A stretch of DNA of 30,505 bases. Source: a virus. The notes under the pieces are model-generated. The model ran no database searches, was not told where the DNA came from, and was given only the letters and a program-made list of their open reading frames with translations. Positions 1-21,404 of this stretch are shown in pieces; the stretch's first letter is position 1, and every line of letters begins with the position of its first letter. The DNA is taken from positions 1 through 30,505 of the IMG/VR virus record IMGVR_UViG_3300033146_004445; one strand, given 5' to 3'. A program made the translations under genes and the position numbers.

Positions 1-2
1 AT

Positions 3-37
3 TGTAAGAGAAACCTTACGGACCGGGGTAGTGTGTA
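3..37. promoter_or_regulatory. Partial dyad element (left edge)
   Basis: TGTA at 3 and TACG at 17 keep the 14-bp step; CCGG at 23 and TGTA at 34 keep the 11-bp step. The distance from TACG to CCGG is 6 rather than 11, so one spacer is shortened. It shares its TGTA at 34 with the complete element that follows. Confidence 0.5.
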
Positions 38-88
38 CACAAAACCTTACAAACTCACTCCGGGGTGTCTTGTATAATAAACTTTACA
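34..88. promoter_or_regulatory. 54-bp dyad element, copy B
   Basis: Anchors TGTA 34, TACA 48, CCGG 60, TGTA 71 and TACA 85. Steps are 14, 12, 11 and 14 bp; one spacer is a base longer than the norm. It lies beyond the terminator of gene 112-540. Confidence 0.75.
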
Positions 89-94
89 TATGTA

Positions 95-120
95 ATAAAA
101 AAAATGGGAGTTTATCCCAT
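95..120 (-). terminator. Intrinsic terminator overlapping the stop of gene 112-540
   Basis: On the minus strand a hairpin with arms ATGGGA and TCCCAT is followed by eight T residues. The TAA stop of the gene lies in the loop region. Confidence 0.8.
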
Positions 121-540
121 TTCAATCAGTTCTTCAATTTCGTAACAATCACCAACTTTAAGAAAATCAAAATCAATTTTAGGGTCAAGACAACTTGCCA
201 CATATAATTCAGTTGAAATTCCGTCGTCAAATTGCCAATTTCCTTCACAATCTTTATAAGGCTTACAATCAAACAACCAAACTGTTTCGTCTTCTTCATC
301 TCTTACAATCCAATTAAAATCAGGGTCAAGAATTTTTAAGAAGTCTTTTGTTTTTTTATTCACTTCCAATACCTCTTCAAAATTAAATTCAAAAATATCA
401 CTAGCTGTGAAGTTTGAGTACCTTTGCGTTCTTTTGCTAAATAACAAACCATTCCTTTTTTCAAAAATTTCAATTGAGCTTACCCATTTTAAATTAGTAA
501 CTCTGTATTCTTTACCCTCTACCATTTGATTAAATATCAT
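112..540 (-). CDS. Hypothetical early protein, paralogue of 4609-5037
   Basis: A 142-residue acidic protein of unknown function. It shares its length and scattered identities with the product of 4609-5037, notably N-F-x-E-V, an x-W-I-x-(R/K)-D-(E/D) block near the middle and I-(D/N)-F-D-F-L near the C-terminus, so the two are probably duplicated copies. Tryptophans are TGG. The start has a GGAG ribosome site and the ATATG start context shared by most neighbours. The TAA stop lies inside the terminator hairpin. Promoter at 570-597. Confidence 0.8.
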   Translation of the reverse strand: MIFNQMVEGKEYRVTNLKWVSSIEIFEKRNGLLFSKRTQRYSNFTASDIFEFNFEEVLEVNKKTKDFLKILDPDFNWIVRDEEDETVWLFDCKPYKDCEGNWQFDDGISTELYVASCLDPKIDFDFLKVGDCYEIEELIEMG

Positions 541-569
541 ATTATTCTCCTTTTCTCTTCTATATCCTT

Positions 570-597
570 ATTATATCACATTTTCAAGTATTGTCAA
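570..597 (-). promoter_or_regulatory. Promoter of gene 112-540
   Basis: On the minus strand TTGACA (597-592), a 16-bp spacer and TATAAT (575-570), followed by the A/G-rich leader that recurs in front of most early genes. Confidence 0.8.
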
Positions 598-605
598 GAA
601 CTATT

Positions 606-821
606 TTAAAGTTTCCAAACGCCTGCGTCTTGAATCATATCAACTACTTCATTCGTTGAATACTGAATAGCAACAACAATCCCTGTAAAAAAGTATATTA
701 AAAATATTATTATTAAGAAAATCCAAGATAATGGATTCCATAGTCTAAGTTTAAAGAAACCTCTTTGGTCTTCATATCCTACTCGAAGACATCTAAGAAT
801 TGCGATAATAATTTTTCTCAT
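606..821 (-). CDS. Small single-pass membrane protein
   Basis: A 71-residue protein of unknown function. Residues 1-29 are basic (R/K-rich) and residues about 31-53 form a strongly hydrophobic I/F/L-rich helix, followed by a short acidic tail ending in W-K-L. This fits an inner-membrane protein with a cytoplasmic positive N-terminus. The tryptophan codons seen are TGG and the stop is TAA. It has its own promoter at 848-875 and no obvious terminator before gene 112-540's promoter. Confidence 0.7.
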   Translation of the reverse strand: MRKIIIAILRCLRVGYEDQRGFFKLRLWNPLSWIFLIIIFLIYFFTGIVVAIQYSTNEVVDMIQDAGVWKL

Positions 822-847
822 ATTTTTCTCCTTTTCTCTATATTTTA

Positions 848-875
848 ATTATATCATATTTTCAAGTATTGTCAA
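848..875 (-). promoter_or_regulatory. Promoter of gene 606-821
   Basis: TTGACA (875-870) and TATAAT (853-848) on the minus strand with a 16-bp spacer. Confidence 0.8.
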
Positions 876-882
876 GGACTTT

Positions 883-1131
883 CTAGAAAAAATCTAGAAA
901 AGTCTTTGAGTGGTCTTTATAAGTAACTCTAATCATTGCGTTCATATATTCAATTAAGAAAATATTCGTATTAAATACTTCTGGCTTATGACTTCCCAAA
1001 AGGTGAATCGTTAAACTTTTTTCATCTCCTTGAATACTTTCAACCACGCCATGATTAATTTTTTTTAATCCATAACAACCGTCAAGAATAACGCTAACCT
1101 CTTTACCTACTAAATCTTTTAAGTTCATCAT
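883..1131 (-). CDS. Hypothetical early protein, possibly a small beta-barrel
   Basis: An 82-residue protein of unknown function. It starts M-M-N-L-K-D-L-V-G-K, a common opening for small SH3-like or Tudor-like barrels, and alternates short polar and hydrophobic stretches with no catalytic motif I can name. The stop is TAG, followed directly by the -35 region of the next promoter (848-875), so no terminator separates the two genes. Promoter 1160-1187. Confidence 0.7.
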   Translation of the reverse strand: MMNLKDLVGKEVSVILDGCYGLKKINHGVVESIQGDEKSLTIHLLGSHKPEVFNTNIFLIEYMNAMIRVTYKDHSKTFLDFF

Positions 1132-1159
1132 AATATTTCCCCTTTCTTTCTATACTCTT

Positions 1160-1187
1160 ATTATATCATACTGTCAAATAATGTCAA
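1160..1187 (-). promoter_or_regulatory. Promoter of gene 883-1131
   Basis: TTGACA (1187-1182), a 16-bp spacer and TATAAT (1165-1160) on the minus strand. Confidence 0.85.
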
Positions 1188-1219
1188 GACTTTTTTTAAA
1201 ATAATTTAATATAAAGTTG

Positions 1220-1273
1220 TGTACATTAAACCTTACAAAACAGACCGGAGCCCTTTGTAAGGTTTCTCTTACA
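1220..1273. promoter_or_regulatory. 54-bp dyad element, copy C (canonical)
   Basis: TGTA 1220, TACA 1234, CCGG 1245, TGTA 1256 and TACA 1270, with steps of 14, 11, 11 and 14 bp. The inner arms extend to CCTTACAAA and TTTGTAAGG. It sits between the terminator at 1282-1309 and the promoter at 1160-1187. Confidence 0.85.
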
Positions 1274-1281
1274 TATATAAT

Positions 1282-1309
1282 AAAAAAAAGACCCTACTTT
1301 TGTAAGGTC
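1282..1309 (-). terminator. Intrinsic terminator of the 1438-1779 transcript
   Basis: Minus-strand hairpin with arms GACCTTAC and GTAGGGTC (one mismatch) around a four-base loop, followed by eight T residues. Confidence 0.8.
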
Positions 1310-1316
1310 TCTCATA

Positions 1317-1370
1317 CTATCCTCTATAGATTGATACATCAAAAAAGATTTTAAGTAGTTTTAATAACAT
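1317..1370 (-). CDS. Candidate 17-residue hydrophobic micropeptide
   Basis: A short reading frame, M-L-L-K-L-L-K-I-F-F-D-V-S-I-Y-R-G, in the 3' part of the transcript of gene 1438-1779. It has a strong ribosome site (AAAGGGGGTG) a few bases before its ATG and a TAG stop just before the terminator. The N-terminal half would form a cationic amphipathic helix, as in type I toxin-like or membrane-active peptides. That function is only an inference; the frame may equally be chance within a structured untranslated region. Confidence 0.35.
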   Translation of the reverse strand: MLLKLLKIFFDVSIYRG

Positions 1371-1375
1371 GTACA

Positions 1376-1432
1376 CCCCCTTTACTTTTGTACTAATAAA
1401 TTAGCAAAGGTGGGGGATTGTATCCCCCTCTA
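1376..1432 (-). other. Structured 3' untranslated region of gene 1438-1779
   Basis: Just after the stop codon the minus-strand RNA can form a hairpin with arms GGGGGAT and ATCCCCC, then a second pairing of CACCTTT with an AAAGGGGGTG stretch. There is no T-tract, so it is not a terminator. The second arm contains the ribosome site of the candidate micropeptide, so folding could hide it. Confidence 0.5.
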
Positions 1433-1437
1433 TACAT

Positions 1438-1779
1438 TTACTCTACTTTACCTTTTTCTCTTTCTGCTTTCATCTGTGCCTTTTGTTCTTCTGTAAAGTT
1501 TGGAATACTAACTTTAGCTTTAGCTTTCGCTTTAGGTTCATTTTTTGTTTCTTCTTTTACTTGTTCAGTTGGTCTTTCAATCTGTTCTTTTTCAAAATCA
1601 ACTGCAACTTTTTTCAAGATAGTTTTTACAATTACATCTTGATTATTTACAGTATCTCTTAAAAGTAAACCTTGCTTAACATGTCCAATCACTTTATAAT
1701 CAGAGAATGAAGCATTTCCAATAGATGCGTAAAGTCTGTTTCTTTTCAATTCGTCGTTTGTAAGTTTTCTGTTAGCCAT
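1438..1779 (-). CDS. Small early protein, paralogue of 3127-3357, with a K/A/E-rich tail
   Basis: A 113-residue protein of unknown function. Residues 1-70 match the product of 3127-3357: E-L-K-R-N-x-(L/I)-Y-A-(S/T), a G-x-V-K-(Q/E)-G-x-L-L-R segment, and D-V-I-V-K followed by E-Q-I-E-R. The remaining 40 residues are an added low-complexity tail (K-A-K-A-K-A-K, then E-E-Q-K-A-Q-M-K-A-E-R-E). ATG at 1779 is preferred over GTG at 1791 because AGGTGG lies 8 bases before it. Three tandem promoters at 1845-2023 suggest high expression, as for an abundant early protein or inhibitor. Confidence 0.75.
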   Translation of the reverse strand: MANRKLTNDELKRNRLYASIGNASFSDYKVIGHVKQGLLLRDTVNNQDVIVKTILKKVAVDFEKEQIERPTEQVKEETKNEPKAKAKAKVSIPNFTEEQKAQMKAEREKGKVE

Positions 1780-1844
1780 AATTTTAGCCACCTTTCATAA
1801 AATTTTAGGATAGGAACAATTTCCTATTTCCTTTCTATATTTAT

Positions 1845-2023
1845 ATTATACCACCTTTTTGAGATGATGTCAATAACTTTTTTTAATTATTTTTTTTATT
1901 TCCTTTCTATATATATATTATACACCTAGACGAATAAATTGTCAAGACTTTTTTTTAATTATTTTTTTTATTTTTTTATTTCCTTTCTATATCTATTATA
2001 CACCTAGATTAAAAAATAGTCAA
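1845..2023 (-). promoter_or_regulatory. Three tandem promoters of gene 1438-1779
   Basis: Minus-strand TATAAT/-35 pairs at 1845-1873, 1917-1945 and 1995-2023, all with 17-bp spacers. The -35 is TTGACA in the first two and TTGACT in the third. The two distal copies share the flanks (CCTTTCTATAT, CACCTAGA and a following T-rich tract), so they look duplicated. Confidence 0.8.
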
Positions 2024-2052
2024 GACTTTTTTTGTCTAATTTATATTTTATT

Positions 2053-2112
2053 TGTATGCGGAACCTTACAAACGCACCCGGGACCTTTTTTCCTTGTAAG
2101 GTAAACTTTACA
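2053..2112. promoter_or_regulatory. 54-bp dyad element, copy D (6-bp insertion)
   Basis: TGTA 2053, TACA 2067, CCGG 2078, TGTA 2095 and TACA 2109. Steps are 14, 11, 17 and 14 bp, so the right inner spacer carries six extra bases (a T-run). The inner arms are CCTTACAA and TTGTAAGG. Confidence 0.75.
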
Positions 2113-2119
2113 TATGCAA

Positions 2120-2145
2120 TAAAAAAAAGGGTTATCCCCTTTTTA
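2120..2145 (-). terminator. Intrinsic terminator of the exonuclease gene
   Basis: Minus strand AAGGGG, a short loop, AACCCTT and eight T residues. A TAA in frame with the exonuclease lies in the loop at 2134-2132. Confidence 0.75.
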
Positions 2146-2146
2146 A

Positions 2147-2884
2147 TCATTTTACTTGAAAGAATTTCTTTACAATTTGCCATGGTGAGCCTACAAAACC
2201 ATTTTTGTAAGTTTTAGTTTTATACATATCTTTCCTTACAATGTTATGAAAAATCATACTTTCGTCAATTGCGTCATCTAAACCTGTATGTTTTTCAACA
2301 TAATATTTATCATCAAACATAAATCTATAAGCAATTTCCGCACTTGTTTTATAGTTGCCTTTCTCAGTAACAAAACCATTATCTAATACAAATTCTTGAA
2401 ATTCTTCTTTCAAAAGTACAGTTTCACATACTAAGCCCCAAATATCCAAAAATTCATAATCACCACTAACAATAACTTTAAAAGATTTTTTATAATCTAA
2501 TTTTTTTTCATTGTAAATCATTTTCTTTTTATTTTGACTTAAAATTCTATTATAACTATTTACTAAAGCTCTAATATCAAATAATAAGTTATAAGCCATA
2601 ACACGAGCTACATTATTTTCTTTAATATCTTTTCTTAAAACTTCCAACATTTCCATAAAATCTACTTTGATATGGTCTAAACCTAAATAATGAATTTTTA
2701 CTTTTTCAGAATAGTAAGCACTATCCATAAGACTTTTAGTTTCAAAAATTTCTTTAATAATAAATCTTCTCTTTTTTAAAGTTTTTCCTTGAGGTGAAGT
2801 GATAATCCAACCAATATCATAAATTAAAGGTAAAGCGATATTTCCAGCAGTTTCAACGTCAAATACTAAGTTATTGTTTTTCAT
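2147..2884 (-). CDS. DnaQ-like 3'-5' exonuclease (DEDD family)
   Basis: A 245-residue protein of the DEDD exonuclease superfamily, which removes nucleotides from DNA or RNA 3' ends using two metal ions. Exo I is F-D-V-E-T near residue 10 with the paired Asp and Glu; Exo II is the L-L-F-D-I-R segment near residue 104; Exo III is H-T-G-L-D-D-A-I-D near residue 200, giving the DEDDh pattern. No polymerase is fused to it, so a repair, proofreading or RNA-trimming role is open. The first stop is TGA at 2149-2147. If TGA were Trp, the frame would add W-L-K-R-G and stop at TAA 2134-2132 inside the terminator, as neighbouring genes do. Confidence 0.85.
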   Translation of the reverse strand: MKNNNLVFDVETAGNIALPLIYDIGWIITSPQGKTLKKRRFIIKEIFETKSLMDSAYYSEKVKIHYLGLDHIKVDFMEMLEVLRKDIKENNVARVMAYNLLFDIRALVNSYNRILSQNKKKMIYNEKKLDYKKSFKVIVSGDYEFLDIWGLVCETVLLKEEFQEFVLDNGFVTEKGNYKTSAEIAYRFMFDDKYYVEKHTGLDDAIDESMIFHNIVRKDMYKTKTYKNGFVGSPWQIVKKFFQVK

Positions 2885-2930
2885 ATTATTTTTCTCCTTT
2901 TAATGTTTCCCCATGTCTTTCTATACTCTT

Positions 2931-3038
2931 ATTATATCACATTTTCAAGTATTGTCAAGACTTTTTTTTAATTTATTTTTTTTATTTTATTTCCCTTTGG
3001 TACTATTCCATTATATCAAATGTTAACTAACAAGTCAA
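2931..3038 (-). promoter_or_regulatory. Two promoters of the exonuclease gene
   Basis: Proximal: TTGACA (2958-2953), 16 bp, TATAAT (2936-2931). Distal: TTGACT (3038-3033), 17 bp, TATAAT (3015-3010). Confidence 0.7.
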
Positions 3039-3062
3039 GCACTATTTTAAAATAATTTTCGC

Positions 3063-3090
3063 CCGGGTCGTTTGTAAAGTTTTCTTTACA
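3063..3090. promoter_or_regulatory. Right half of a dyad element, copy E
   Basis: CCGG 3063, TGTA 3073 and TACA 3087 (steps of 10 and 14). The left TACA and TGTA anchors are missing; that side is occupied by the distal exonuclease promoter. Confidence 0.6.
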
Positions 3091-3096
3091 TATGTA

Positions 3097-3122
3097 ATAA
3101 AAAAAAAGGGGTTTCCCCCTTT
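3097..3122 (-). terminator. Intrinsic terminator of gene 3127-3357
   Basis: Minus-strand hairpin AAAGGGG / CCCCTTT followed by at least eight T residues, directly after the TAA stop. Confidence 0.8.
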
Positions 3123-3126
3123 ATGT

Positions 3127-3357
3127 TTACTTTTCTGTATCTTCTTTAACATTTTCAGTCAATCTTTCGATTTGCTCACTATCGTAATCAACAACTGATT
3201 TTTTAATGATAATCTTTACAATTACATCTTCAGTTTCATTTCTTAATAAATAACCTTCTTTTACATTACCAACATTTTCATAATCACCAAATTTTGTATT
3301 AGCAACTGTTGCGTAGATAGCATTTCTTTTTAATTCCATTTTAGTCATTTTTTTCAT
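3127..3357 (-). CDS. Small early protein, paralogue of 1438-1779
   Basis: A 76-residue protein of unknown function that aligns over its whole length with the first 70 residues of the product of 1438-1779 but lacks the K/A/E-rich tail. Shared positions include E-L-K-R-N, Y-A-(S/T), the G-x-V-K-(E/Q)-G-x-L-L-R segment, D-V-I-V-K and E-Q-I-E-R. It also has tandem promoters (3418-3546). The duplication of both gene and promoter arrangement suggests the pair was copied as a cassette. Confidence 0.75.
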   Translation of the reverse strand: MKKMTKMELKRNAIYATVANTKFGDYENVGNVKEGYLLRNETEDVIVKIIIKKSVVDYDSEQIERLTENVKEDTEK

Positions 3358-3417
3358 AATATTTTCTCCTTAATCATTTTTTAGGAAATAACTTTTTTAT
3401 TTCCTTTCTATACATAT

Positions 3418-3546
3418 ATTATACCATGAGATTAAAATATTGTCAATACTTTTTTTTAAAATATTTTCAACTTTTCGAACCAACCAGATTTTCAATTTAT
3501 CTCTTTGGTATATATCTATTATACACCTAAATAAAAAAAATGTCAA
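3418..3546 (-). promoter_or_regulatory. Two tandem promoters of gene 3127-3357
   Basis: TTGACA/TATAAT pairs at 3446-3418 and 3546-3518 on the minus strand, each with a 17-bp spacer. The flank CACCTA beside the distal -10 also occurs in the tandem promoters of the paralogue. Confidence 0.8.
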
Positions 3547-3598
3547 ACTTTTTTTTATTTATTTTAACAGCTCACAAATATGTAATAGTCCTTACGCG

Positions 3599-3652
3599 TG
3601 TATGATTTACCTTACAAACGGGTCCGGAGTGCTTTGTATATTTTTCCTTACA
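3599..3652. promoter_or_regulatory. 54-bp dyad element, copy F (canonical)
   Basis: TGTA 3599, TACA 3613, CCGG 3624, TGTA 3635 and TACA 3649; steps of 14, 11, 11 and 14 bp. An AGCT lies upstream at 3569 and a TACG sits 20 bp before the first TACA. Confidence 0.85.
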
Positions 3653-3662
3653 ATACAAATGT

Positions 3663-3690
3663 AAAAAAGATCTTACTTTCGTAAGACCCT
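3663..3690 (-). terminator. Intrinsic terminator of the HAD gene
   Basis: Minus-strand hairpin GGTCTTAC / GTAAGATC (one mismatch) with a four-base loop and six T residues. Confidence 0.75.
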
Positions 3691-3695
3691 CTCAA

Positions 3696-4151
3696 TCAAT
3701 TTTCAATAAAATAATTCAAAGTTTCAAAAATTCTTGTTTCGTCAAATGCTATTCCGCCGTTTATATACCAATCTTTTCTCACTTCTGGATTATCATCTAG
3801 TAAATAACAGTCTTGTAAACTTGTGGGTACATCATGTTTGTTAGTTCCATATTGCACAATATACACATTATCAAATTTAATTCCTGTTTTATCTAGCCAT
3901 TCAAGTTTTTCCTCTGTTACAATTGTATTATAATTATTACTTACATTCTTTGCTAACCATGTAATAATATTTATTTCAAAGCCTTTTGACTGTAATCTTT
4001 CTATCTTATCTCTAAGTAAATTTAAATCTATAAGAGGTTTTGCATTTACATATAAGCCTACCTTTTCAGTCATTAAGTCCTCAAGCCAATTATCTTGTCC
4101 ATATAAATCTACAATTGTTCCGTCCATATCAAAATAAATTTTTTCTTTCAT
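3696..4151 (-). CDS. HAD-fold 5'(3')-deoxyribonucleotidase-like phosphatase
   Basis: A 151-residue haloacid-dehalogenase-fold protein. Motif I is F-D-M-D-G-T-I-V-D-L at residues 7-16, with the nucleophile and acid Asp pair. The I-I-T-W segment fits motif II, and C-Y-L-L-D-D-N-P-E near residue 117 fits motif IV with paired Asp. Size and motifs resemble the NT5C family, which dephosphorylates (deoxy)nucleoside monophosphates in the cytoplasm; phages use these to adjust nucleotide pools. The gene ends at TGA (3698-3696). If TGA were sense, the frame would continue 16 codons through the terminator to TAA at 3650-3648, so here TGA looks like a genuine stop. Confidence 0.85.
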   Translation of the reverse strand: MKEKIYFDMDGTIVDLYGQDNWLEDLMTEKVGLYVNAKPLIDLNLLRDKIERLQSKGFEINIITWLAKNVSNNYNTIVTEEKLEWLDKTGIKFDNVYIVQYGTNKHDVPTSLQDCYLLDDNPEVRKDWYINGGIAFDETRIFETLNYFIEN

Positions 4152-4185
4152 ATTATTTTCTCCTTTTGTCCTTTTCTATATTCTT

Positions 4186-4214
4186 ATTATATCAAGCCTT
4201 GACTAAAAAGTCAA
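4186..4214 (-). promoter_or_regulatory. Promoter of the HAD gene
   Basis: TTGACT (4214-4209), a 17-bp spacer and TATAAT (4191-4186) on the minus strand. Confidence 0.75.
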
Positions 4215-4222
4215 GACTTTTT

Positions 4223-4423
4223 TTAAATTAATTCATAAATATTATTAGAGATATCATAAAATCTAATCTCATTTGGAAAAAGATAAAAATCATCGTAACT
4301 ATCTATAAATTCGTTATGTTCATTATCTCCAAAAATAATAACAATAGTTCTACCCTCTATAAATAATTCTTTAAATACTCCCTCATACACTAGCTCTCCA
4401 TTTTTAAAAAGTTTTTTAGTCAT
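4223..4423 (-). CDS. Hypothetical early protein
   Basis: A 66-residue acidic protein of unknown function, rich in aromatic and beta-branched residues (I-V-I-I-F, D-D-F-Y-L-F) and probably all-beta. It ends in TAA only 9 bp before the -35 of the HAD promoter; no terminator hairpin is visible between them, so readthrough into the HAD gene is likely. Confidence 0.65.
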   Translation of the reverse strand: MTKKLFKNGELVYEGVFKELFIEGRTIVIIFGDNEHNEFIDSYDDFYLFPNEIRFYDISNNIYELI

Positions 4424-4451
4424 ATTGTTTCCCCCTTCTTTCTATACTCTT

Positions 4452-4479
4452 ATTATATCACACTGTTAAATAAAGTCAA
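4452..4479 (-). promoter_or_regulatory. Promoter of gene 4223-4423
   Basis: TTGACT (4479-4474), 16 bp, TATAAT (4457-4452) on the minus strand. Confidence 0.75.
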
Positions 4480-4532
4480 GCATTTTTTTAATTATTTTTT
4501 GGCAGCTCGTCTTTTTTTAATATACTTACATA

Positions 4533-4586
4533 TGTAAAATATTCTTTACAATTCAGACCGGGCTCTTTTGTATACTAAATTTTACA
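4533..4586. promoter_or_regulatory. 54-bp dyad element, copy G (canonical)
   Basis: TGTA 4533, TACA 4547, CCGG 4558, TGTA 4569 and TACA 4583; steps of 14, 11, 11 and 14 bp. A further TACA at 4527 (20 bp before) and AGCT at 4504 match the array at 6965-7144. Confidence 0.85.
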
Positions 4587-4593
4587 ATTGCAA

Positions 4594-4620
4594 TAAAAAA
4601 ATAATGACCTAAGTCATTAT
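4594..4620 (-). terminator. Intrinsic terminator overlapping the stop of gene 4609-5037
   Basis: A perfect 8-bp stem, ATAATGAC / GTCATTAT, with a four-base loop that contains the TAG stop codon, followed by seven T residues on the minus strand. Confidence 0.85.
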
Positions 4621-5037
4621 AATTAATTTCTGAATTTTGTAAGCAATTTCTGTTTGAAGAAAGTCAAAATTTATATTTTCATTGAGATATCCTGAACGTA
4701 TAAAATTAAATGCTGAGCCAATACTGTCTTCCCAATAATCATCTCCAATATCTTTTACTGGCATTCTTTTGAAGAAATTAATGTCCCCGTCATCATCTTT
4801 TGCTATCCATTTATATTTACTACTAACTAACTGTAAGAGCAATTGAGTTGCTTTGTTTATTTTAGGTACTTCTGTAAAGTTTAAATCTGGAATTTCTTCT
4901 ACTCTATAATGGCTAAATTTTTCTATATCATTTAAATAAAGTAAATTGTCTTTTATTGAATAATGACCAGAAAGAAGCTGGTTGTTTATATCTACTATCG
5001 CATACATCTTATCTTTTTTTAAGTCTTTAAATTTCAT
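4609..5037 (-). CDS. Hypothetical early protein, paralogue of 112-540
   Basis: A 142-residue protein of unknown function, the same length as the product of 112-540. Shared features are an N-F-x-E-V segment, x-W-I-A-K-D-D-D (versus W-I-V-R-D-E-E) near the middle and I-N-F-D-F-L near the end. ATG at 5037 is preferred over an upstream TTG because AGGAG lies 7-8 bases before it; the start then overlaps the end of the small gene 5027-5140. It is the third gene of the operon from the promoter at 5303-5330. Confidence 0.8.
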   Translation of the reverse strand: MKFKDLKKDKMYAIVDINNQLLSGHYSIKDNLLYLNDIEKFSHYRVEEIPDLNFTEVPKINKATQLLLQLVSSKYKWIAKDDDGDINFFKRMPVKDIGDDYWEDSIGSAFNFIRSGYLNENINFDFLQTEIAYKIQKLIIMT

Positions 5038-5140
5038 AGCTCTCTCCTTTTTGTTTTTTGTAGCTCCCAAACCCCGTATTATTATTGAGAGCCTTCTTTA
5101 TTTTTTTTAGTCTTTTCAGCCTTTTGTACTTCTTAAGCAT
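5027..5140 (-). CDS. Very basic 37-residue peptide
   Basis: A short gene translationally coupled on both sides: its ATG overlaps the TAA of 5140-5277 (TAATG) and its end overlaps the start of 4609-5037. AGGAG precedes the start. The first 17 residues are almost entirely Lys, Arg, Leu, Ile and Tyr, so the product is strongly cationic and may bind nucleic acid or serve mainly for coupling. No family recognised. Confidence 0.55.
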   Translation of the reverse strand: MLKKYKRLKRLKKIKKALNNNTGFGSYKKQKGESYEI

Positions 5141-5277
5141 TAATACCACGCTCCTTTTGTAGCTTTATTATATATTGCGTCAGCTATTATCACAGCAAAC
5201 CCCACTACAGCTGTAAACTTTATCGCTCCAACAAACATGTCCAACATGATTTTCAATACCATTAGTTTTTCATTCAT
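5140..5277 (-). CDS. Small membrane protein
   Basis: A 45-residue protein, first gene of the three-gene operon 5277-4609. Residues about 14-34 (V-G-A-I-K-F-T-A-V-V-G-F-A-V-I-I-A) form one hydrophobic segment followed by a short polar tail ending G-A-W-Y. GAGAGG lies before the start. No family recognised; a holin-like or membrane-tether role cannot be judged from sequence. Confidence 0.6.
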   Translation of the reverse strand: MNEKLMVLKIMLDMFVGAIKFTAVVGFAVIIADAIYNKATKGAWY

Positions 5278-5302
5278 ATTATGCCTCTCTTTCTATACTC
5301 TT

Positions 5303-5330
5303 ATTATATCATACTATTATATATTGTCAA
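5303..5330 (-). promoter_or_regulatory. Promoter of the 5277-4609 operon
   Basis: TTGACA (5330-5325), 16 bp, TATAAT (5308-5303) on the minus strand. Confidence 0.8.
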
Positions 5331-5350
5331 GACTTTTTTTAATTAATTTT

Positions 5351-5470
5351 GATAAATACAAGATTCGAACTTGTATCTCCTAGCCTTTCCCGTTAATTTA
5401 TGAACAAGTGTTCAAACGGATTCGAACCGTTATAGCCAAGCGTGTTCCCAATTACACCAATCTACCTCAT
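5351..5470 (-). ncRNA. tRNA-like locus with two T-arm hairpins, possibly degenerate tRNAs
   Basis: A promoter-driven stretch with no convincing reading frame. On the minus strand it shows in order: GTGT-(8 nt)-ACAC like a D-arm at about 5457-5442; a G-C-T-T-G-G start of an anticodon stem with no partner; AACGG-TTCGAAT-CCGTT at 5431-5415, a textbook T-arm; TGAAC-ACTT-GTTCA at 5414-5401; and ACAAG-TTCGAAT-CTTGT at 5373-5357, a second T-arm, followed by ATTTATCA. I could not fold either into a full cloverleaf: the first lacks the rest of its anticodon arm and a matching acceptor, the second has too little sequence before its T-arm. It may be decayed or minimal tRNAs or a tRNA mimic. Confidence 0.45.
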
Positions 5471-5486
5471 CTCTTTCTATACTCTT

Positions 5487-5514
5487 ATTATATCATACTA
5501 TCAAATAATGTCAA
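5487..5514 (-). promoter_or_regulatory. Promoter of the tRNA-like locus
   Basis: TTGACA (5514-5509), 16 bp, TATAAT (5492-5487) on the minus strand. The RNA would start close to the D-arm-like hairpin. Confidence 0.8.
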
Positions 5515-5556
5515 GGTTTTTTTTAATTATTTTTTGTAGCTCCAATTATTTACATA

Positions 5557-5610
5557 TGTAAAAAATGCCTTACAATCAGCCCCGGACCCCTACGTACAAA
5601 AAACCTTACA
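5557..5610. promoter_or_regulatory. 54-bp dyad element, copy H
   Basis: TGTA 5557, TACA 5571, CCGG 5582, CGTA 5593 (one mismatch) and TACA 5607, steps of 14, 11, 11 and 14 bp. An extra TACA at 5551 precedes the inner TACA by 20 bp and AGCT lies at 5538. Confidence 0.8.
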
Positions 5611-5620
5611 AATGTAAGGT
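5596..5620 (-). terminator. Terminator of the 6048-5632 operon, sharing bases with dyad copy H
   Basis: Minus strand ACCTTACA / TGTAAGGT, an 8-bp stem with a two-base inner loop, then six T residues. The TACA at 5607 is both the last anchor of the dyad element and part of this stem. Confidence 0.7.
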
Positions 5621-5631
5621 CTTATCTTTTT

Positions 5632-5793
5632 CTATACTCTTGTAAATATTATTTGACAATCACAATCAGCGTCGCACGCCATACATATTCTATCAATTAT
5701 TCTTTCATCAGTTGTGACATATTGTTCTTCTGTATCTCCTACTACTAGATAACTATCTTCTCTAATGTTGTGAGCTATTTCTATTGTTTTCAT
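5632..5793 (-). CDS. Small Cys-rich protein
   Basis: A 53-residue protein read directly from the minus strand, with GGAG before the ATG and a TAG stop. The C-terminal third holds C-M-A-C-D-A-D-C-D-C, a C-x2-C-x3-C-x-C cluster that could bind zinc or an iron-sulphur centre. The rest is polar. It lies downstream of 5839-6048 without its own promoter. Function unknown. Confidence 0.6.
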   Translation of the reverse strand: MKTIEIAHNIREDSYLVVGDTEEQYVTTDERIIDRICMACDADCDCQIIFTRV

Positions 5794-5816
5794 AATTTTT
5801 CTCCTTTTTTATGTAA

Positions 5817-5837
5817 AGGTGGAATTTTTATCCACCT
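5817..5837 (-). other. Intercistronic hairpin
   Basis: AGGTGGA / TCCACCT, a perfect 7-bp stem with a 7-base loop between 5839-6048 and 5632-5793. The T-run that follows is short (TTTACAT), so it may attenuate transcription or stabilise the upstream message rather than terminate fully. Confidence 0.5.
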
Positions 5838-5838
5838 A

Positions 5839-6048
5839 TTAAATTAATTCTACTACTGCTGAATGACTTCGAACATAAGTTCCGTCGTCGTAATCTAATA
5901 CTTCTAAAACATCTTTACCCATTGCGTCCCTATATTTTCCCCAGACCTTTGTTCCAACTTTGTCTACTTTATTTGCTTGAATTACTATTCCTTGAAGTTT
6001 TTTTCCGTCGTTCTCTTTAATGAATTCTTTTCTTTGTTTTCTAGTCAT
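5839..6048 (-). CDS. Hypothetical basic early protein
   Basis: A 69-residue protein of unknown function with a basic start (M-T-R-K-Q-R-K-E) followed by what looks like a small beta fold. GGAG lies before the ATG and the stop is TAA. It is first in an operon with 5632-5793. Confidence 0.65.
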   Translation of the reverse strand: MTRKQRKEFIKENDGKKLQGIVIQANKVDKVGTKVWGKYRDAMGKDVLEVLDYDDGTYVRSHSAVVELI

Positions 6049-6080
6049 GTTATTTTCTCCTTTATCTCTTCTATGTATTT

Positions 6081-6108
6081 ATTATACCATACTGTCAAAT
6101 ATTGTCAA
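6081..6108 (-). promoter_or_regulatory. Promoter of the 6048-5632 operon
   Basis: TTGACA (6108-6103), 16 bp, TATAAT (6086-6081) on the minus strand. Confidence 0.8.
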
Positions 6109-6116
6109 GACTTTTT

Positions 6117-6272
6117 TTAAAAAAATAATGCTAAATTCATTCCAATTAGAAATATTATAAAAACTCTTTTGGCAATCTTTTTTTCATTAGTCATAATAAA
6201 AACTATTGCTGATGATATTGATATCATAATAAATAAACTCTCTATTACTAAAAATCCTTTAAGTGTTAACAT
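6117..6272 (-). CDS. Two-helix small membrane protein
   Basis: A 51-residue protein read directly. Residues 6-27 and 38-51 are hydrophobic and a basic turn (N-E-K-K-I-A-K-R) lies between, so it should form a hairpin in the membrane with the loop facing the cytoplasm. GGAAG lies before the ATG; the stop is TAA. Class II holins share this topology, but position among early genes argues against lysis. Function unknown. Confidence 0.6.
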   Translation of the reverse strand: MLTLKGFLVIESLFIMISISSAIVFIMTNEKKIAKRVFIIFLIGMNLALFF

Positions 6273-6297
6273 TTTTACACTTCCTTTCTATACTCTT

Positions 6298-6325
6298 ATT
6301 ATACCATACTGTCAAATAATGTCAA
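6298..6325 (-). promoter_or_regulatory. Promoter of gene 6117-6272
   Basis: TTGACA (6325-6320), 16 bp, TATAAT (6303-6298) on the minus strand. Confidence 0.8.
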
Positions 6326-6367
6326 GATTTTTTTTAATTATTTTTAAAACTTTTTTATTCTTTTTCC

Positions 6368-6396
6368 TTGACAAGACCCCGGAATAGGCGTATAAT
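6368..6396 (+). promoter_or_regulatory. Promoter of gene 6431-6889
   Basis: TTGACA 6368-6373, 17-bp spacer, TATAAT 6391-6396. The spacer contains CCCCGG, but the TACA/TGTA anchors of the dyad element are absent. Confidence 0.85.
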
Positions 6397-6430
6397 AAGA
6401 TTATAGAAGAGGAAGAGAAAGGAAAATAAT

Positions 6431-6889
6431 ATGAATTCAAACTTAAAAAAAGAAATGGTTCTTAAAGAAATGAAAAATTTAATGAATGTAAAAACAATCC
6501 AATCTAAAAAATATAATGTTGGAGAGTACGCCGAATGTTTAGCTGATGACAAAGAAAATATTCTTTGGAAAAAAGATAACAAAAAATATTCAAAAGGTGA
6601 TGACTCTAAAAGATACGGTTCAATAAAAACTGATAAAGCTACAATTATTGAAGATAAAAGTTGTAAAAGTGAAAAAGAATTATTTGATACTTATTTTAAA
6701 AATGTTCATTCAATCAAATTTACTTTAATTCATTTTACAAAAACAGAAATAGAATTTATAGAATTAAACAAAAAACAGTTTAAAGAGGTTGTAAAAAGAT
6801 TTGCATATTATGAAGAAAAAAGAAGTAAATTGAGATTAAATCTAAGTCAAAAAAATATCAACTTAATAAAATATGAAATTCTAAATTGA
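6431..6889 (+). CDS. Lone rightward early gene, hypothetical
   Basis: A 152-residue, Lys-rich basic protein of unknown function and the only rightward gene in the first 10.3 kb. Its consensus promoter lies back to back with that of 6117-6272, and GGAAAA precedes the ATG. The middle has V-G-E-Y-A-E-C-L-A-D followed by Y-G-S-I-K-T-D, which I could not place in a family. The gene ends in TGA (6887-6889); if TGA were sense it would run 32 codons further, through the terminator and into the dyad array, to TAG at 6983. So TGA most likely stops here. Confidence 0.7.
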   Translation: MNSNLKKEMVLKEMKNLMNVKTIQSKKYNVGEYAECLADDKENILWKKDNKKYSKGDDSKRYGSIKTDKATIIEDKSCKSEKELFDTYFKNVHSIKFTLIHFTKTEIEFIELNKKQFKEVVKRFAYYEEKRSKLRLNLSQKNINLIKYEILN

Positions 6890-6890
6890 A

Positions 6891-6916
6891 TCCTTTTGAA
6901 AAGGGTTCTTTTCTTT
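6891..6916 (+). terminator. Probable terminator of gene 6431-6889
   Basis: CCTTT, a three-base loop, AAAGG, then a T-rich run interrupted by single C residues. Confidence 0.55.
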
Positions 6917-6964
6917 TATACAATTAACCTTACAATAAAAAAAATCCCTTACAATAGATTCTAC

Positions 6965-7144
6965 AGCTCACATTTGTACATATAGCCTTACAAAGTTATA
7001 TTTATCCTTACAATTCACACCGGAATCAATTGTATAGTGCAGCTCACTTTTGTATTGTAACCCTTACAGCTGCATAATTAACCTTACAAATGGAACCGGT
7101 GTGTTATGTAAGTGACAGCTCGCATATGTATATAAAGCCTTACA
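6965..7144. repeat. Anchor-repeat array with 76-bp period
   Basis: AGCT 6965, TGTA 6975, TACA 6989, TACA 7009, CCGG 7020, TGTA 7031, AGCT 7041, TGTA 7051, TACA 7065, TACA 7085, CCGG 7096, TGTA 7107, AGCT 7117, TGTA 7127 and TACA 7141. Steps of 11, 11, 10, 10, 14 and 20 recur exactly, while the bases between anchors differ. Seven CCTTACA words fall within 6925-7145. There is no reading frame of note. It lies between convergent genes. Confidence 0.8.
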
Positions 7145-7146
7145 AA

Positions 7147-7169
7147 GGTATCCTCAAGAGGATAATACC
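7147..7169. repeat. Inverted repeat after the array
   Basis: TATCCTC-AA-GAGGATA, extended outward by GGTAT and ATACC with one slippage. No T-tract on either side; role unknown. Confidence 0.45.
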
Positions 7170-7224
7170 TCCATATTCGACTTCTCAGAGCTTTTTATAT
7201 ATACAGGTCTATTTATTCACATAA

Positions 7225-8300: not shown

Positions 8301-8719
8301 CAAAATATTTAATTATTTTTTTATGCAACTTGATAGGGTATTAATAAAGTAGGTTGTTTACTTATTCTTTTATATAAAAAAATAATTAAATAATTAATAA
8401 AAAAAATATATAATTAATAAAAAAAACAATTAAAAATAAATAATAATTAATAAAAAAAATATTATATAATAATTAAATTATATAATATTTATTAAAAAAA
8501 AAATATAATTTAATTATTATATAATGCAAGTGTATACCGATATATAACTATTAAAAAAAATATAATAATAATAATAATAATAATAGATATAATAATATAA
8601 TATATAATAATAAAATGTATATAATGTAATACAGGATAGCTTCCTATAAGAGTAAGTGGGGGTAGGTTTTAGGGGCATATACGTTTTTGTTTCTTACATT
8701 AGGGCCGCCCCCACAACTT
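8301..8719. other. AT-rich non-coding region, origin candidate
   Basis: About 420 bp without a gene. Positions 8380-8630 are almost pure A/T with TAA/ATA runs. They are followed at 8640-8715 by a short G/C-rich stretch in which GTGGGGG (8656-8662) can pair with CCCCCAC (8708-8714). The AT-rich DNA, large inverted repeat and nearby iterated repeats resemble a replication origin, but no initiator gene is in the window. Confidence 0.45.
8461..8525. repeat. Perfect 23-bp inverted repeat
   Basis: Left arm 8461-8483 and right arm 8503-8525 are exact reverse complements, separated by 19 bases. Every base of the arms is A or T. Confidence 0.85.
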
Positions 8720-8808
8720 CTAATGAATTTTTTTTAAAAGTTATCTAATGAATTTTTTTTAAAAGTTATCTAATGAATTTTTTTTAAAAGTTATCTAATG
8801 AATTTTTT
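8720..8808. repeat. 25-bp tandem direct repeat
   Basis: Units start at 8720, 8745, 8770 and 8795 with an exact 25-bp period; the last is partial. Each unit carries CTAATGAA, a run of T, then AAAAGTTAT. The repeat directly follows the stop of gene 8807-9199. Confidence 0.9.
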
Positions 8809-9199
8809 ATCTAACATCTAAATATAATTCTTTTCTTATTCTAGCTATTATTTTTGGTCCCATCCCATGTATTTCTTTAGACCTAGCCTCTAAATCTTCT
8901 ATAGCAAATCTATCTCCCATAGCTTCTTGTATATGCACTATTATTTTAGCCCCTATACCTCTAACTCCTTTGAGCTGTTTAATAGTTATCATAGTATCTT
9001 CTCCATAAAATTCTTCTATCCCTGCCAAAGTAATCTTGTCACCTCTTTTTAACTCATATTCAAACAAGCTCTTCATAGTAGTAAACTCTTTAGGAGTGCT
9101 TATTTTCAATAACTTCATTTGATACAGATTTCATAAACTCCATCTAGAAAATTCACCTTGTGCCGCAAATTTCTCTTCTACAAATTTATCTACTCGCAT
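8807..9199 (-). CDS. Helix-hairpin-helix DNA-binding protein, read through TGA
   Basis: A 130-residue protein with two helix-hairpin-helix motifs: L-K-G-V-R-G-I-G-A-K-I and I-H-G-M-G-P-K-I-I-A-R-I. These are the G-h-G hairpins that contact the DNA backbone in RuvA-, ComEA- and ligase-type domains. The frame is open from ATG 9199 only if TGA at 9133-9131 (codon 23) is Trp. That ATG has GGAGG 8-9 bases upstream and lies next to the TAA of the RtcB-like gene, whereas ATG 9118, the start in the standard code, has no ribosome site. Second gene of the 10115-8807 operon. Confidence 0.75.
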
Positions 9200-12741: not shown

Positions 12742-14454
12742 ATGGCTATAGAAGAATTATGGCATTCGGCTGGAATAGATGTTAGCGGTGAAATGAGTAA
12801 AGAAAAAATTCAAGACAATCGTCAAGAATTATCAAACTATATAGCTTATTGGAGGGAATACCCCGATAAGCTAGTAGATTTCCTTACTCCTAATGGAAGT
12901 AATTTCAATCTTTATTTCTATCAAAGAATATTATTAAGGATAATATTGAGATATCCTTATACGTATGCTACATGTACTAGAGCTTATTCTAAATCATTTC
13001 TTTCTATATTAGCACTGTTGCTTAAGTCAATATTGTACCCTGGCATAAAGTTATTTATTAGTTCAGGAACTAAAAAACAAGCAGCAGGAATAGCAAAAGA
13101 AAAGTTAGATGAGTTATTATACCTATTGCCACAATTAAAGAATGAAATAGTTGGTGGGGAAAGAGGTATAAATAAAGGTAGTGATTATTTAGAAATTAAT
13201 TTTAAGAATAGAAGTAATTTAATGATTGTTGGCGTTTCCAATAGTTCAAGAGGGGGGCGTAGACATTCAGGTCTATTAGAAGAAGCTATACTAATAGATG
13301 GTACTAAATTGAATGAAGTAATATTACCATTGATGAATATAGATAGAAGAGCTGCAAATGGTTTAGTGGACCCGAATGAAAACCATAAATCTCATAGTTT
13401 TATTACTACAGCAGGTTATAAAAATACTTTTGCTTATAAGAAACAAATACAATTCTTAATATGGCAAGTGCTGTTGGGTAAAGGATTTGTAATTGGTGGA
13501 GATTTTGAAATACCAGTATCTTATGGACTATTAGATGAAAATTTTGTTAAAGAATTAAAATTAGATGGTACTTATAACGAAATGTCATTTAGTAGAGAGT
13601 ATGGAAGTAGATGAAGTGGTTCCATAGAAGGAAGTTTTTATAATCCAGATTTATTTGACAGACAAAGAATTTTAGAAGAACCTGAAAATTTTAGAGATGT
13701 AGAATCATCGCTTGATACTTATTATATTATAGGGATTGACGTTGGACGTTTAAATGATAGTTCTGAAGCAGTAATCATTAAAGTAGTTCCGGATATAAAT
13801 GGAGTCGCTAAAAAAGAAGTTGTATGATTAGAGAGTTATGAAAAAATGCATTTTAAAGAACAATCAATAAGAATTAAAAAACTATATAATAATTTTTTAC
13901 CAGAAGCTATTGTAATAGATGCTAATGGTATTGGAGCAGGACTCGTTGATTATTTAATAGATGACCAAATTGAGTCAATAACTGGAGAAATTTTACCTAC
14001 TTTTGCAATTAAAAATGATAGTAGATACGAACATTTAAAGAAGAAAACGGATATTGATGTACTATTTAATATAAAGGCTAATGAAAGCCTTAACAGTGAG
14101 ATGCATATTAATTTAGCTTCTCAAATGAGCTCAAATAAACTTCATTTTTTACTAGATGAAAGAGCTGCTAGAAAATTAGTAAATAAAGAAGGTCAAATAA
14201 TAGAAAATTTATCAATAAGAGATAGGGCTAAAAGATTAAAGCCCTTTATTCTAACTACATTATTAAAAGATCAAGTAATGAACCTGGTTAAGAAGAATGA
14301 AGAGATGAATAAAGTGAGTTTAAAAAGATATGACGTTTCATTGGGGAAAGATAAGTTTAGTGCACTTGAGTATGGACTTTATTATATTAGTATGAAAGAA
14401 TCTAATGTTACCTCAAGAATGAGTGGAATAATGGACTATTTAAATTTCAATTAA
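12742..14454 (+). CDS. terL: Terminase large subunit, with two in-frame TGA (Trp)
   Basis: A 570-residue DNA-packaging motor ATPase and nuclease, interrupted by TGA at 13612 (codon 291) and 13825 (codon 362) in the standard code. The ATPase part has a Walker A variant C-T-R-A-Y-S-K-S at 78-85 and Walker B G-L-L-E-E-A-I-L-I-D at 177-186. The RNase H-like nuclease part has I-I-G-I-D-V-G with D333 and V-I-D-A-N-G with D393. The first TGA falls at R-E-Y-G-S-R-(W)-S-G-S, where related terminases carry a conserved Trp, which supports Trp as the meaning. The domain joins only if both TGA codons are read. Confidence 0.93.
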
Positions 14455-14471: not shown

Positions 14472-15920
14472 TTGATAATTAGTAGAACAATAAATAAAAG
14501 AGATAAGATATCTTTTGCGGAGTTAGGTAAGGCTAAAGGTTTAATACCTTCTGATATGTTAAATTCTTCTAGTGGATTGCAATATACTACTGAAGATATT
14601 GAGAATGCTATCATTTCCGGAGATAGAAGTCAAATGAGAACCATTTCAAATTATTTTTATGAAAGAGGTGGGATATATAGCAATTTAATACAATATAAGG
14701 TAGATTTAATTTCTCCTAAATATATTGTATCATCTGTTAACTCTCAAGAAAAAAATAAAGAAGCAACTTTAAAGTTGGTGTTGGAAGGCTTGGACTTTAT
14801 AGAAAAGATGTCTCTTGATAAACAGTATATAGAAATTGCTAGAGAAACTTTTAAAGATGGGGCTAGTTTTAGATACTATGTTGAAGGAGATAGTGCAATA
14901 ACTTTTCAGCAATTGCCAGTAAAGTATTGTAGAACTAGATTTCAAGTAAACAATTTAGGGACAGTTGAATTTGACCCTAGCTACTTTAATAATGAATTTA
15001 GAGATGCAACAGAAAGAGAACAGATTTTAAAAATGTATCCGAAAGAGATTCAAAAAGCTTATCAAAGTTTACAGAATGGAAGTTTAAAAAGAGATACTAG
15101 TGGGGGTTATTGAATATTATTAGATCCAAATAATGCTGTAGCTTTTACTTATAATGGGATTCAAACACCACCTTTTATGTCAATTTTAACTGATATTATT
15201 GATTTAAAAGATGAAAGAGTCATTGTAAAAAAAAGAATGGCACAAGAATTAAGAAAAATATTAATTCAAAAAGTACCTAGTGATAAAGAGGGAAATTTTT
15301 TATTAGACGCAGAAGAGACAAAGTCTTTACATAAGTTCGCTAATAATATATTATCAGATAATGAAGACGTAGATGTTTTAACGACTTTCGCTGAAACAGA
15401 GCTAATGGACTTGCAAGAGTCTCAAAAGGTACAACAAAATGCAACTAGTCAGTCTGAGCAAATAGTATTTACAGAAGCTGGAATTTCATCTTCTCTATTT
15501 AACTCAGATAGTAATACGACTCAAAAATCTTCTATATTAAGAGACATAGAAACATTAAAATATTTATTATTAAGTGTAGAGGTATTTTTAAATAGAAAAA
15601 TTAAAGAGGCAGTAAATGAAGACCTATGGTTAAAGTTAATACCTGTATCAATTCATACTATTGAAGAACAATATAGAAGAGCTGTTGAAGGTGCTACTTT
15701 CGGGATGCCTACAAAAATGATAGCTGCTATTTATAATGGGATTACTCAAAAAGAATTCTTAGAATTGTTGTCATTTGAGAATGACGTTATGGATTTAGCA
15801 GAATTGATGAAACCAATGAATTCTTCTTATACTCAGTCAGGAGACGGTGGAAGAGAATCTTCTAAAGAGGAAGATGTTACTTCTAAAACAATAGAGAATA
15901 AAAACACTGAGGAGGGGTAA
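14472..15920 (+). CDS. Portal protein, with one in-frame TGA (Trp)
   Basis: A 482-residue portal candidate; TGA at 15111 is codon 214. It follows the large terminase directly, as in most tailed phages, has the expected size, and includes a long helix-rich segment and a polar, disordered C-terminus (S/E/K/N-rich, about 440-482). The portal forms the ring through which DNA enters and the tail attaches. The start is TTG at 14472 with AAGGAGG about 9 bases upstream; the ATG inside that region leads to a stop in another frame. The family call rests on gene order and overall character. Confidence 0.82.
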
Positions 15921-20480: not shown

Positions 20481-21404
20481 ATGGGTTATATAGATATAGT
20501 AAGAAAAAGAATGAATTTTAGCCCAGATAATCCTCTTGATACATTAATCAAAGGTAACGTTGCAAATATTGAAGTTAAAAACGTATATACTGGAGATACT
20601 TTTGTAGGCGTTATTGTTGAAGATGATAGTGATTCAATGACTGATGAAAAAATATTATATCTATATCCAGGTGACATGCACGAAGGTGACGTAATAGAAT
20701 GGAAAGAAAAAAAGTGAATACTTTTTCAAGAAGAACTAAATACTTTAAATCAGTATAATAAGTTCTTTATTATAGAATGCTTAGGAGATATTAAATTTTT
20801 ATTAAATGGTAAAGAAAGTGGAACTCATCCAATAGCTTTTTTAAAAAGTAGAGCAGGAGCTTCAACGACTAAAGTTGGAGCAAGGTATTATCATGCAATT
20901 GGAAACTCTTTTTTAAGTGCTATTGTTAATAAAAATGAAGAAACTGTTTCTTTAAAAAGAGATGATGAATTAATAATTAATAAGAATATTTGAGAGATAG
21001 AAAGCTTAAATAATTACGAATCTGATTCTGTTATTGTATTAGGCCTTAGAGAAGGTAAAATAAGTAATTCAGACGATGTCATTAGTGGTGTTGCAAATAC
21101 TATAAATAATTTAAATTCACCAATAGTTACAGATGGAACTTACGAATATACGATAGAAGGAGAACCTACAATATCTGTTGAAAGCTATAAAACCTATGTA
21201 GTTAAAAAAATAGATAGTTTTGGAAATGAAATTCCATTGGACACGGTATTGTATTCAACAACTTCTGATTTGGTAACTTTAATACCAGAAGGTAATGATG
21301 TAAAAATTGTTGCAGGAGAAGAAGCGGGAACTTTCATATTAAACGTAGCTGTAGATGGACAAGAAATAGATGTAAATATAGAAATATTGAGTTTTTGAGG
21401 GTAA
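20481..21404 (+). CDS. Head-tail joining protein with Ig-like C-terminus, three in-frame TGA (Trp)
   Basis: A 307-residue protein read through TGA at 20715, 20991 and 21396 (codons 79, 171, 306). The N-terminal half resembles head-closure or stopper proteins: G-D-V-I-E-W-K-E-K-K-(W)-I-L-F and D-E-L-I-I-N-K-N-I-(W)-E-I, where Trp after a short turn is typical. Residues about 215-305 look like a bacterial Ig-like domain (T-I-S-V-E-S-Y-K-T-Y and A-G-E-E-A-G-T-F-I-L-N-V), which may decorate the neck. It ends W-G just before TAA. Confidence 0.8.

Follow-up and report, generated by a model that had tools for sequence, protein, structure and literature searches.

How are the many short early operons of a large gut phage kept apart, and how could they be switched off together? 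Such phages carry dozens of tiny early genes, many with a perfect promoter and a terminator of their own. We addressed this question in a linear virus record of 30.5 kb (IMG/VR record IMGVR_UViG_3300033146_004445, positions 1 to 30,505; hereafter the window), an incomplete contig whose late-gene homologues (PhoH, tape measure and capsid) mark it as part of a large, gut-type SPbeta-related siphovirus. Its first 8 kb are occupied by small early genes, almost all of them on the minus strand, and contain numerous perfect sigma-70 promoters as well as several intrinsic terminators; these genes mostly lack family matches and are arranged as promoter-gene-terminator modules. Between the modules, a first-pass annotation had noticed a recurrent gapped skeleton, TGTA-N10-TACA-N7-CCGG-N7-TGTA-N10-TACA. 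As judged from sequence, the element is real and strongly significant, apparently undescribed, and built on a plan that related phages share.

Anatomy and orientation of the element

All 20 anchor bases of the skeleton are present in the copies at 1220, 3599 and 4533, and 19 of the 20 in the copy at 5557 (Table 1). Paired 18-bp dyads, with centres 36 bp apart, enclose the CCGG core, in line with the proposed arrangement of two dyads around one centre. The other copies listed by the first-pass annotation have their anchors at the places given, with the exact spacing broken to the left of the core in one and to the right of it in another, and its partial copies and the two CCGG centres of the array were likewise recovered. 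Within this array, the unit reads AGCTCRC-N3-TGTA-N7-CCTTACA ..., and the units are 58–71% alike.

Table 1 Positions of the element, its flanking motifs and early promoters in the window
Feature	Position	Strand	Composition	Terminator or hairpin	Promoter side
Partial element	3-26	+	Imperfect dyad TGTAAGAGAAACCTTACG (3-20; TTACG) and CCGG 23-26		
Element, 55 bp	34-88	+	N8 (not N7) left of CCGG 60-63	Terminator 123-101 (-), 12 bp	
Full element, 20/20	1220-1273	+		Terminator 1313-1286 (-), 12 bp	33 bp upstream of -35 at 1187 (-)
Element, 60 bp	2053-2112	+	Right spacer N13 (6 bp longer)	Terminator 2144-2124 (-), 11 bp	-35 at 2023 (-)
Half element (right half)	3063-3090	+	CCGG-N6-TGTA-N10-TACA	Terminator 3122-3104 (-), 13 bp	-35 at 3038 (-)
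Full element, 20/20	3599-3652	+		Hairpin near 3669-3688 (-), about 16 bp	AGCTCAC at 3569; -35 at 3546 (-)
Full element, 20/20	4533-4586	+		Hairpin 4620-4601 (-), 14 bp	AGCTC at 4504; -35 at 4479 (-)
Element, 19/20	5557-5610	+	CGTA replaces TGTA at 5593	Right TACA overlaps hairpin ACCTTACAAATGTAAGGT (5603-5620)	-35 at 5514 (-)
Array, three ~76-bp units	6965-7144	+	Dyads 6975, 7051, 7127; CCGG 7020, 7096; AGCTC 6965, 7041, 7117		
Outer TACATATGTA	85-94		Same motif at 3087, 4527, 5551; TACAAATGTA at 3654, 5607		
Example early promoter	3518-3546	-	TTGACA-N17-TATAAT		Other -35 starts 1187, 2023, 3038, 4479, 5514

The comparison with shuffled sequence that the annotation had suggested was made against 1000 dinucleotide shuffles of early intergenic DNA. 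Segments scoring at least 16 of the 20 anchors number six in this DNA and were absent from every shuffle. The individual spacings are similarly overrepresented, with 17 occurrences of TGTA-N10-TACA in the first 7.2 kb (0.115 expected), seven of TACA-N7-CCGG (0.02 expected) and eight of TACA-N2-TGTA (0.07 expected). Across gaps of 0–30 in the early region, enrichment at such a level is confined to N10 among TGTA-to-TACA gaps; among TACA-to-TGTA gaps, only N2 and N18 are strongly enriched.

The anchor skeleton is its own reverse complement, as had been pointed out, but the sites that fill it are oriented: the right end reads YTTACA in 15 of 15 dyads of the elements and the array, whereas the left end reads TGTAAR in only 5 of 15. 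Because all 15 dyads conform to TGTA-N8-YTTACA in a single direction, the element is a tandem, one-way pair of imperfect dyads that is palindromic in its skeleton only.

Covariation of the inner arms, a check also raised by the first-pass annotation, was no higher than in shuffles (207 of 500 were equally high); only the invariant TGTA/TACA pairs hold across the 15 dyads, with inner pairs broken in 7–11 of them, and Rfam returned no match at the elements. Since the paired arms carry no compensatory change, the element is not an RNA hairpin, and a reading as an RNA element (hairpin or terminator) was ruled out. Spacers within the elements diverge while anchors and distances hold.

Placement at operon borders in the window and in relatives

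The position beyond terminators held up and proved to be tightly constrained. Six copies lie 11–16 bp from the hairpin (standard deviation 1.6), a seventh overlaps its hairpin, and each of the seven minus-strand terminators examined lies within 17 bp of a dyad end, compared with at most five of seven in 200,000 random placements. The boundary operons of the elements are all on the minus strand. Distances to the next -35 box, which had been put at 45–70 bp, actually run from 25 to 54 bp when measured from the near edge of the element (standard deviation 12), and helical phasing of CCGG to the -35 box is not demonstrable (P = 0.04 at 10.5 bp in the window; not significant in the relative L177, described below). 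No TGTA-N10-TACA dyad lies in the 110 bp upstream of strong promoters that lack a preceding terminator, with the exception of promoter 1945, which reaches one at 108 bp solely through the pair serving promoter 2023. The array, for its part, sits between the convergent terminators 6888-6908 (+) and 7248-7231 (-) with no promoter adjoining. Given the near-constant hairpin gap, the terminator-less promoters without an element and the promoter-less array, terminator linkage is the stronger rule in the phage of the window: here, the element is anchored to terminators, not to promoters.

This linkage extends to the sequence that joins the two. TACA-N2-TGTA (mostly TACATATGTA) flanks the elements and continues into the A/T tract of the terminator, and the terminator-proximal junction TTTACATATGYAATAAAAAAAA is nearly identical, as an almost contiguous sequence, in several copies. 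Such near-contiguous conservation suggests that terminator and element may travel together, and some copying of the two as one unit is likely. The annotation had favoured protein contacts over recent copying; the absence of RNA covariation agrees with the former, whereas the junction points to a measure of the latter.

To place the element in its phage group, we compared early regions of relatives chosen by capsid protein (37–53% identical). The best named or deposited matches of the late genes are Enterococcus EF1/VRE9, Geobacillus E3, Bacillus PJN02, the human gut phage Phass-1 and two human faecal fragments; close relatives were found neither by single-protein searches of IMG/VR nor in the other collections searched. 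Two further scans yielded chance matches: a 16-base version of the skeleton gave 11 single matches, each without further copies, and the array-unit pattern gave one, in a contig of 44% GC.

Several capsid-based relatives hold phage-specific dyads at the equivalent place, and those with about 40–53% capsid identity follow the plan of the window in other letters, one version being terminator, GTTAGT-N4-ACTAAC, GCCCGGGC, GTTAGT-N4-ACTAAC, promoter. GCCCGGGC lies within 110 bp upstream of a promoter in 18 of its 19 occurrences in L177 (contig G025; P = 4e-10) and in 11 of 12 in L176 (P = 3e-7). In L177, it follows the hairpin either directly (0–10 bp) or after a GTTAG-N6-CTAAC dyad; where such a dyad intervenes, the hairpin-to-core gap is 32–35 bp at six of six sites of L177 and L176, compared with 37–42 bp in the window. 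At L177 6160-6207, the arrangement dyad-N4-GCCCGGGC-N4-dyad (GTTAG dyads) sets the dyad centres 32 bp apart, against 36 bp in the window. A further relative, L172 (G013), carries CTTTAA-N4-TTAAAG arrays, intergenic in 13 of 13 copies, around CCGGGCG-type GC-rich inverted repeats, and L180 and L181 carry 11-bp-phased TTCATAAT/TTTACAAT arrays that surround GC-rich hairpins and sit downstream of terminators and upstream of promoters. The annotation had named, as a refuting outcome, relatives that keep spacers but not anchors; instead, neither spacers nor outer anchors are kept, while some relatives retain the CCGG core, the layout and the place.

The extent of this sharing varies. CCGG is significantly enriched upstream of promoters in the window, L176, L177 and L181, marginally so in L180 and not in other relatives; an enrichment common to all relatives was therefore rejected, and the core is common to part of the group only. 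Under a strict T-tail rule, the contrast between terminators and promoters reaches P = 0.045 in L176, a weak signal, and falls short of significance in L177 (P = 0.46).

The GC-rich hairpins of the boundary arrays in L180 (4951-4990) and L181 (5476-5515) share a conserved loop, GATTACCTATTTCAAT, and their stems differ compensatorily between the two phages; Rfam gave no match for the L180 hairpin. Early intergenic regions of the Enterococcus phages VRE9_3 and EF1 (L011 654-8591, L014 1698-8582) hold most of two further kinds of dyad, TTGTGAAA-N-TTTCACAA-like ones resembling Rex operators and TGTAAGCGCTTACA-like ones resembling CcpA cre sites, a possible sign that host global regulators are used or titrated.

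Function and alternatives

The reading that we favour, and hold as a serious possibility just short of probable, is that the element comprises paired operators for a putative DNA-binding protein and forms an oriented roadblock or silencer behind the terminators between early operons. The binder, phage-encoded or from the host, would be dimeric or oligomeric and would occupy two 18-bp operators around the core, with contacts to CCGG being optional. In constant orientation, the element follows immediately after the intrinsic terminator of one early operon and precedes the next promoter; protein bound there would build an oriented nucleoprotein block, halting polymerase that comes from the terminator side and hence read-through from the upstream operon. 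Such a block would isolate or silence early operons, either during lysogeny or when early expression gives way to late.

The closest parallel is offered by stoperators, one of several roles considered by the first-pass annotation. Those of cluster A mycobacteriophages (L5 type) are many oriented intergenic sites whose letters differ among phages while the plan is shared, each a single asymmetric 13-bp site for a monomeric repressor, located in short intergenic spaces and proposed to halt elongation (PMC6550527, PMC9283540). The window resembles this system in its multiple intergenic sites spread over early operon boundaries in one orientation relative to transcription (15 of 15 dyads), which may serve one regulator, and in the use of different letters on the same plan by different phages. 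It differs in having imperfect 18-bp dyads in pairs, spaced 36 bp apart with CCGG between them, and in placing them beyond terminators. The element would most likely act like a stoperator or boundary element, a likeness and not a demonstration that it is a stoperator.

Several observations weigh against a roadblock. No DNA-binding regulator domain was recognised in the early open reading frames (ORFs) of the 30.5-kb fragment, and a candidate binder was not found. The sites are not in transcribed DNA, so that a blocker would matter for read-through only. Exact skeleton scans of IMG/VR and bacterial genomes gave no match, so that the exact element occurs in no other record searched. Finally, most boundaries in the relatives carry terminator and promoter together, which makes the two anchors only partly separable there.

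That the dyads instead serve a classical phage repressor or activator as upstream operators, through which it would regulate the downstream early promoter by looping or RNA polymerase contact, seems to us rather unlikely but deserves the most attention among the alternatives. Every complete element whose downstream side falls inside the window precedes a strong early promoter, the GCCCGGGC counts in L177 and L176 tell the same way, and the TTGTTTACAA dyad of L180/L181 often lies 9–14 bp from the -35 box. There is also a precedent in SPbeta, whose early promoters carry SPBRE, a 15-bp motif bound by MrpR (YopR; PMC10516654). Of the 20 uncultured relatives searched, two (G001 and G004) have an mrpR homologue, as do Geobacillus E3, Alicyclobacillus KKP_3916, PJN02 and BcoS-136. 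Against such a role stand the variable distance to the -35 box with its weak phasing, about ten strong promoters without an element of their own, and the array without a neighbouring promoter; moreover, a homologue search at E ≤ 0.001 found no MrpR match in G013, G024 or G025, all of which carry analogous elements. Identity with SPBRE itself was rejected. The two systems occur in related phages, with homologous structural genes in the SPbeta-like group, and have in common numerous early intergenic copies and the half-site letters TACA and TGTA, but SPBRE is a single TACA-N7-TGTA dyad on or beside the promoter, whereas in the window TGTA-N10-TACA pairs enclose a CCGG core and lie behind terminators, 25–54 bp upstream of the -35 box, with no enrichment of N7. 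Counts of TACA-N7-TGTA versus TGTA-N10-TACA are 1 versus 17 in positions 1-7200 of the window and 7 versus 2 in 50 kb of SPbeta.

Another family of regulators comes to mind from the flanking motifs. CopY/BlaI/MecI-type repressors use operators of the form TACANNTGTA, to which the TACATATGTA flanks of several elements are similar; the main unit in the window, however, is TGTA-N10-TACA, and no such repressor gene was recognised there. A search of the open literature for similar phage elements found none, which does not prove novelty.

A chromosome-scale function, with the 76-bp array as the main partition (centromere) or origin site of a phage-plasmid and the other copies as dispersed secondary sites, is improbable. 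Capsid relatives do occur among plasmid records (Limosilactobacillus, Vagococcus, Bacillus), PJN02 has genes annotated as a partition protein and as ParG-like, and the array is iteron-like; yet strict terminator linkage of the single elements would be unexpected, no par or rep gene was recognised near the array (in an incomplete contig where many early ORFs lack any match), and 8.3–8.8 kb holds an AT-rich stretch of its own, with a ~24-bp repeated unit. A shade less probable still is that the elements are module borders for recombination or shuffling of early gene cassettes, the terminator-element junction moving as a unit. The near-identical junction and the small, mostly family-less genes in promoter-gene-terminator modules would fit, but diverged spacers with constant anchors and distances are not explained by copying alone.

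The location behind terminators also recalls the BIME/REP elements (bacterial interspersed mosaic elements/repetitive extragenic palindromes) of enterobacteria, which are extragenic palindromes and transcribed hairpins. Like these, the window elements stand behind operon ends, repeated and palindrome-like; unlike these, they are not transcribed hairpins, and their anchors do not covary. A BIME-like topological boundary that absorbs supercoils or binds a nucleoid protein between dense promoters, without sequence-specific regulation, is very unlikely: this location and the long AT-rich phased arrays around GC-rich cores in relatives would suit it, but in the window the anchors are precise and the orientation is one-way, which favours a sequence-specific binder.

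Further features of the window and implications

Beyond the element, the coding content of the window is unusual. Late genes at 12742-14454, 14472-15920, 20481-21404, 21912-22643, 24109-25398 and 25399-30504 are whole only with TGA read as tryptophan (code 4), under which the terminase has 570 and the portal 482 amino acids. Early genes 2147-2884, 3696-4151 and 6431-6889 use TGA as their stop (in 6431-6889, immediately ahead of the gene's terminator), so recoding of TGA seems confined to the late genes. Default ARAGORN found no tRNA gene; a 44-bit Rfam tRNA match extends over 117 bases at 5350-5466 (-) and includes an insertion with another T-arm-like hairpin, giving it the look of a split or decayed tRNA pair. 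At 8330-8815, highly AT-rich sequence leads into about four copies of a ~24-bp repeat, TTTTTTTTAAAAGTTATCTAATGAA, possibly a replication origin. By eye, the early proteins of 1438-1791 and 3127-3357 are paralogue-like (NRKLTNDELKRNRLYAS / KMTKMELKRNAIYAT). The lone plus-strand gene 6431-6889, beside the array, has a CCGG in its promoter spacer (6368-6396), opposite the divergent promoter 6325; the structure model of its product was too poor for use (predicted local distance difference test score 48).

Viewed across the group, it is conceivable, though on the doubtful side, that a lineage of large SPbeta-related gut phages marks early-operon borders by a common plan of terminator, dyad, CCGG-type core, dyad and promoter, in which the outer dyad letters are swapped between phages. 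Fast-evolving DNA-binding proteins would read these borders as a phage-specific insulation code that combines protein roadblock termination with operon silencing. Conserved geometry with exchangeable letters would then predict one cognate DNA-binding protein per phage, for which the element could serve as bait, and the element itself would constitute a compact, oriented transcription insulator. Lineage-specific motifs of this kind could, in addition, assign metagenomic phages to immunity groups.

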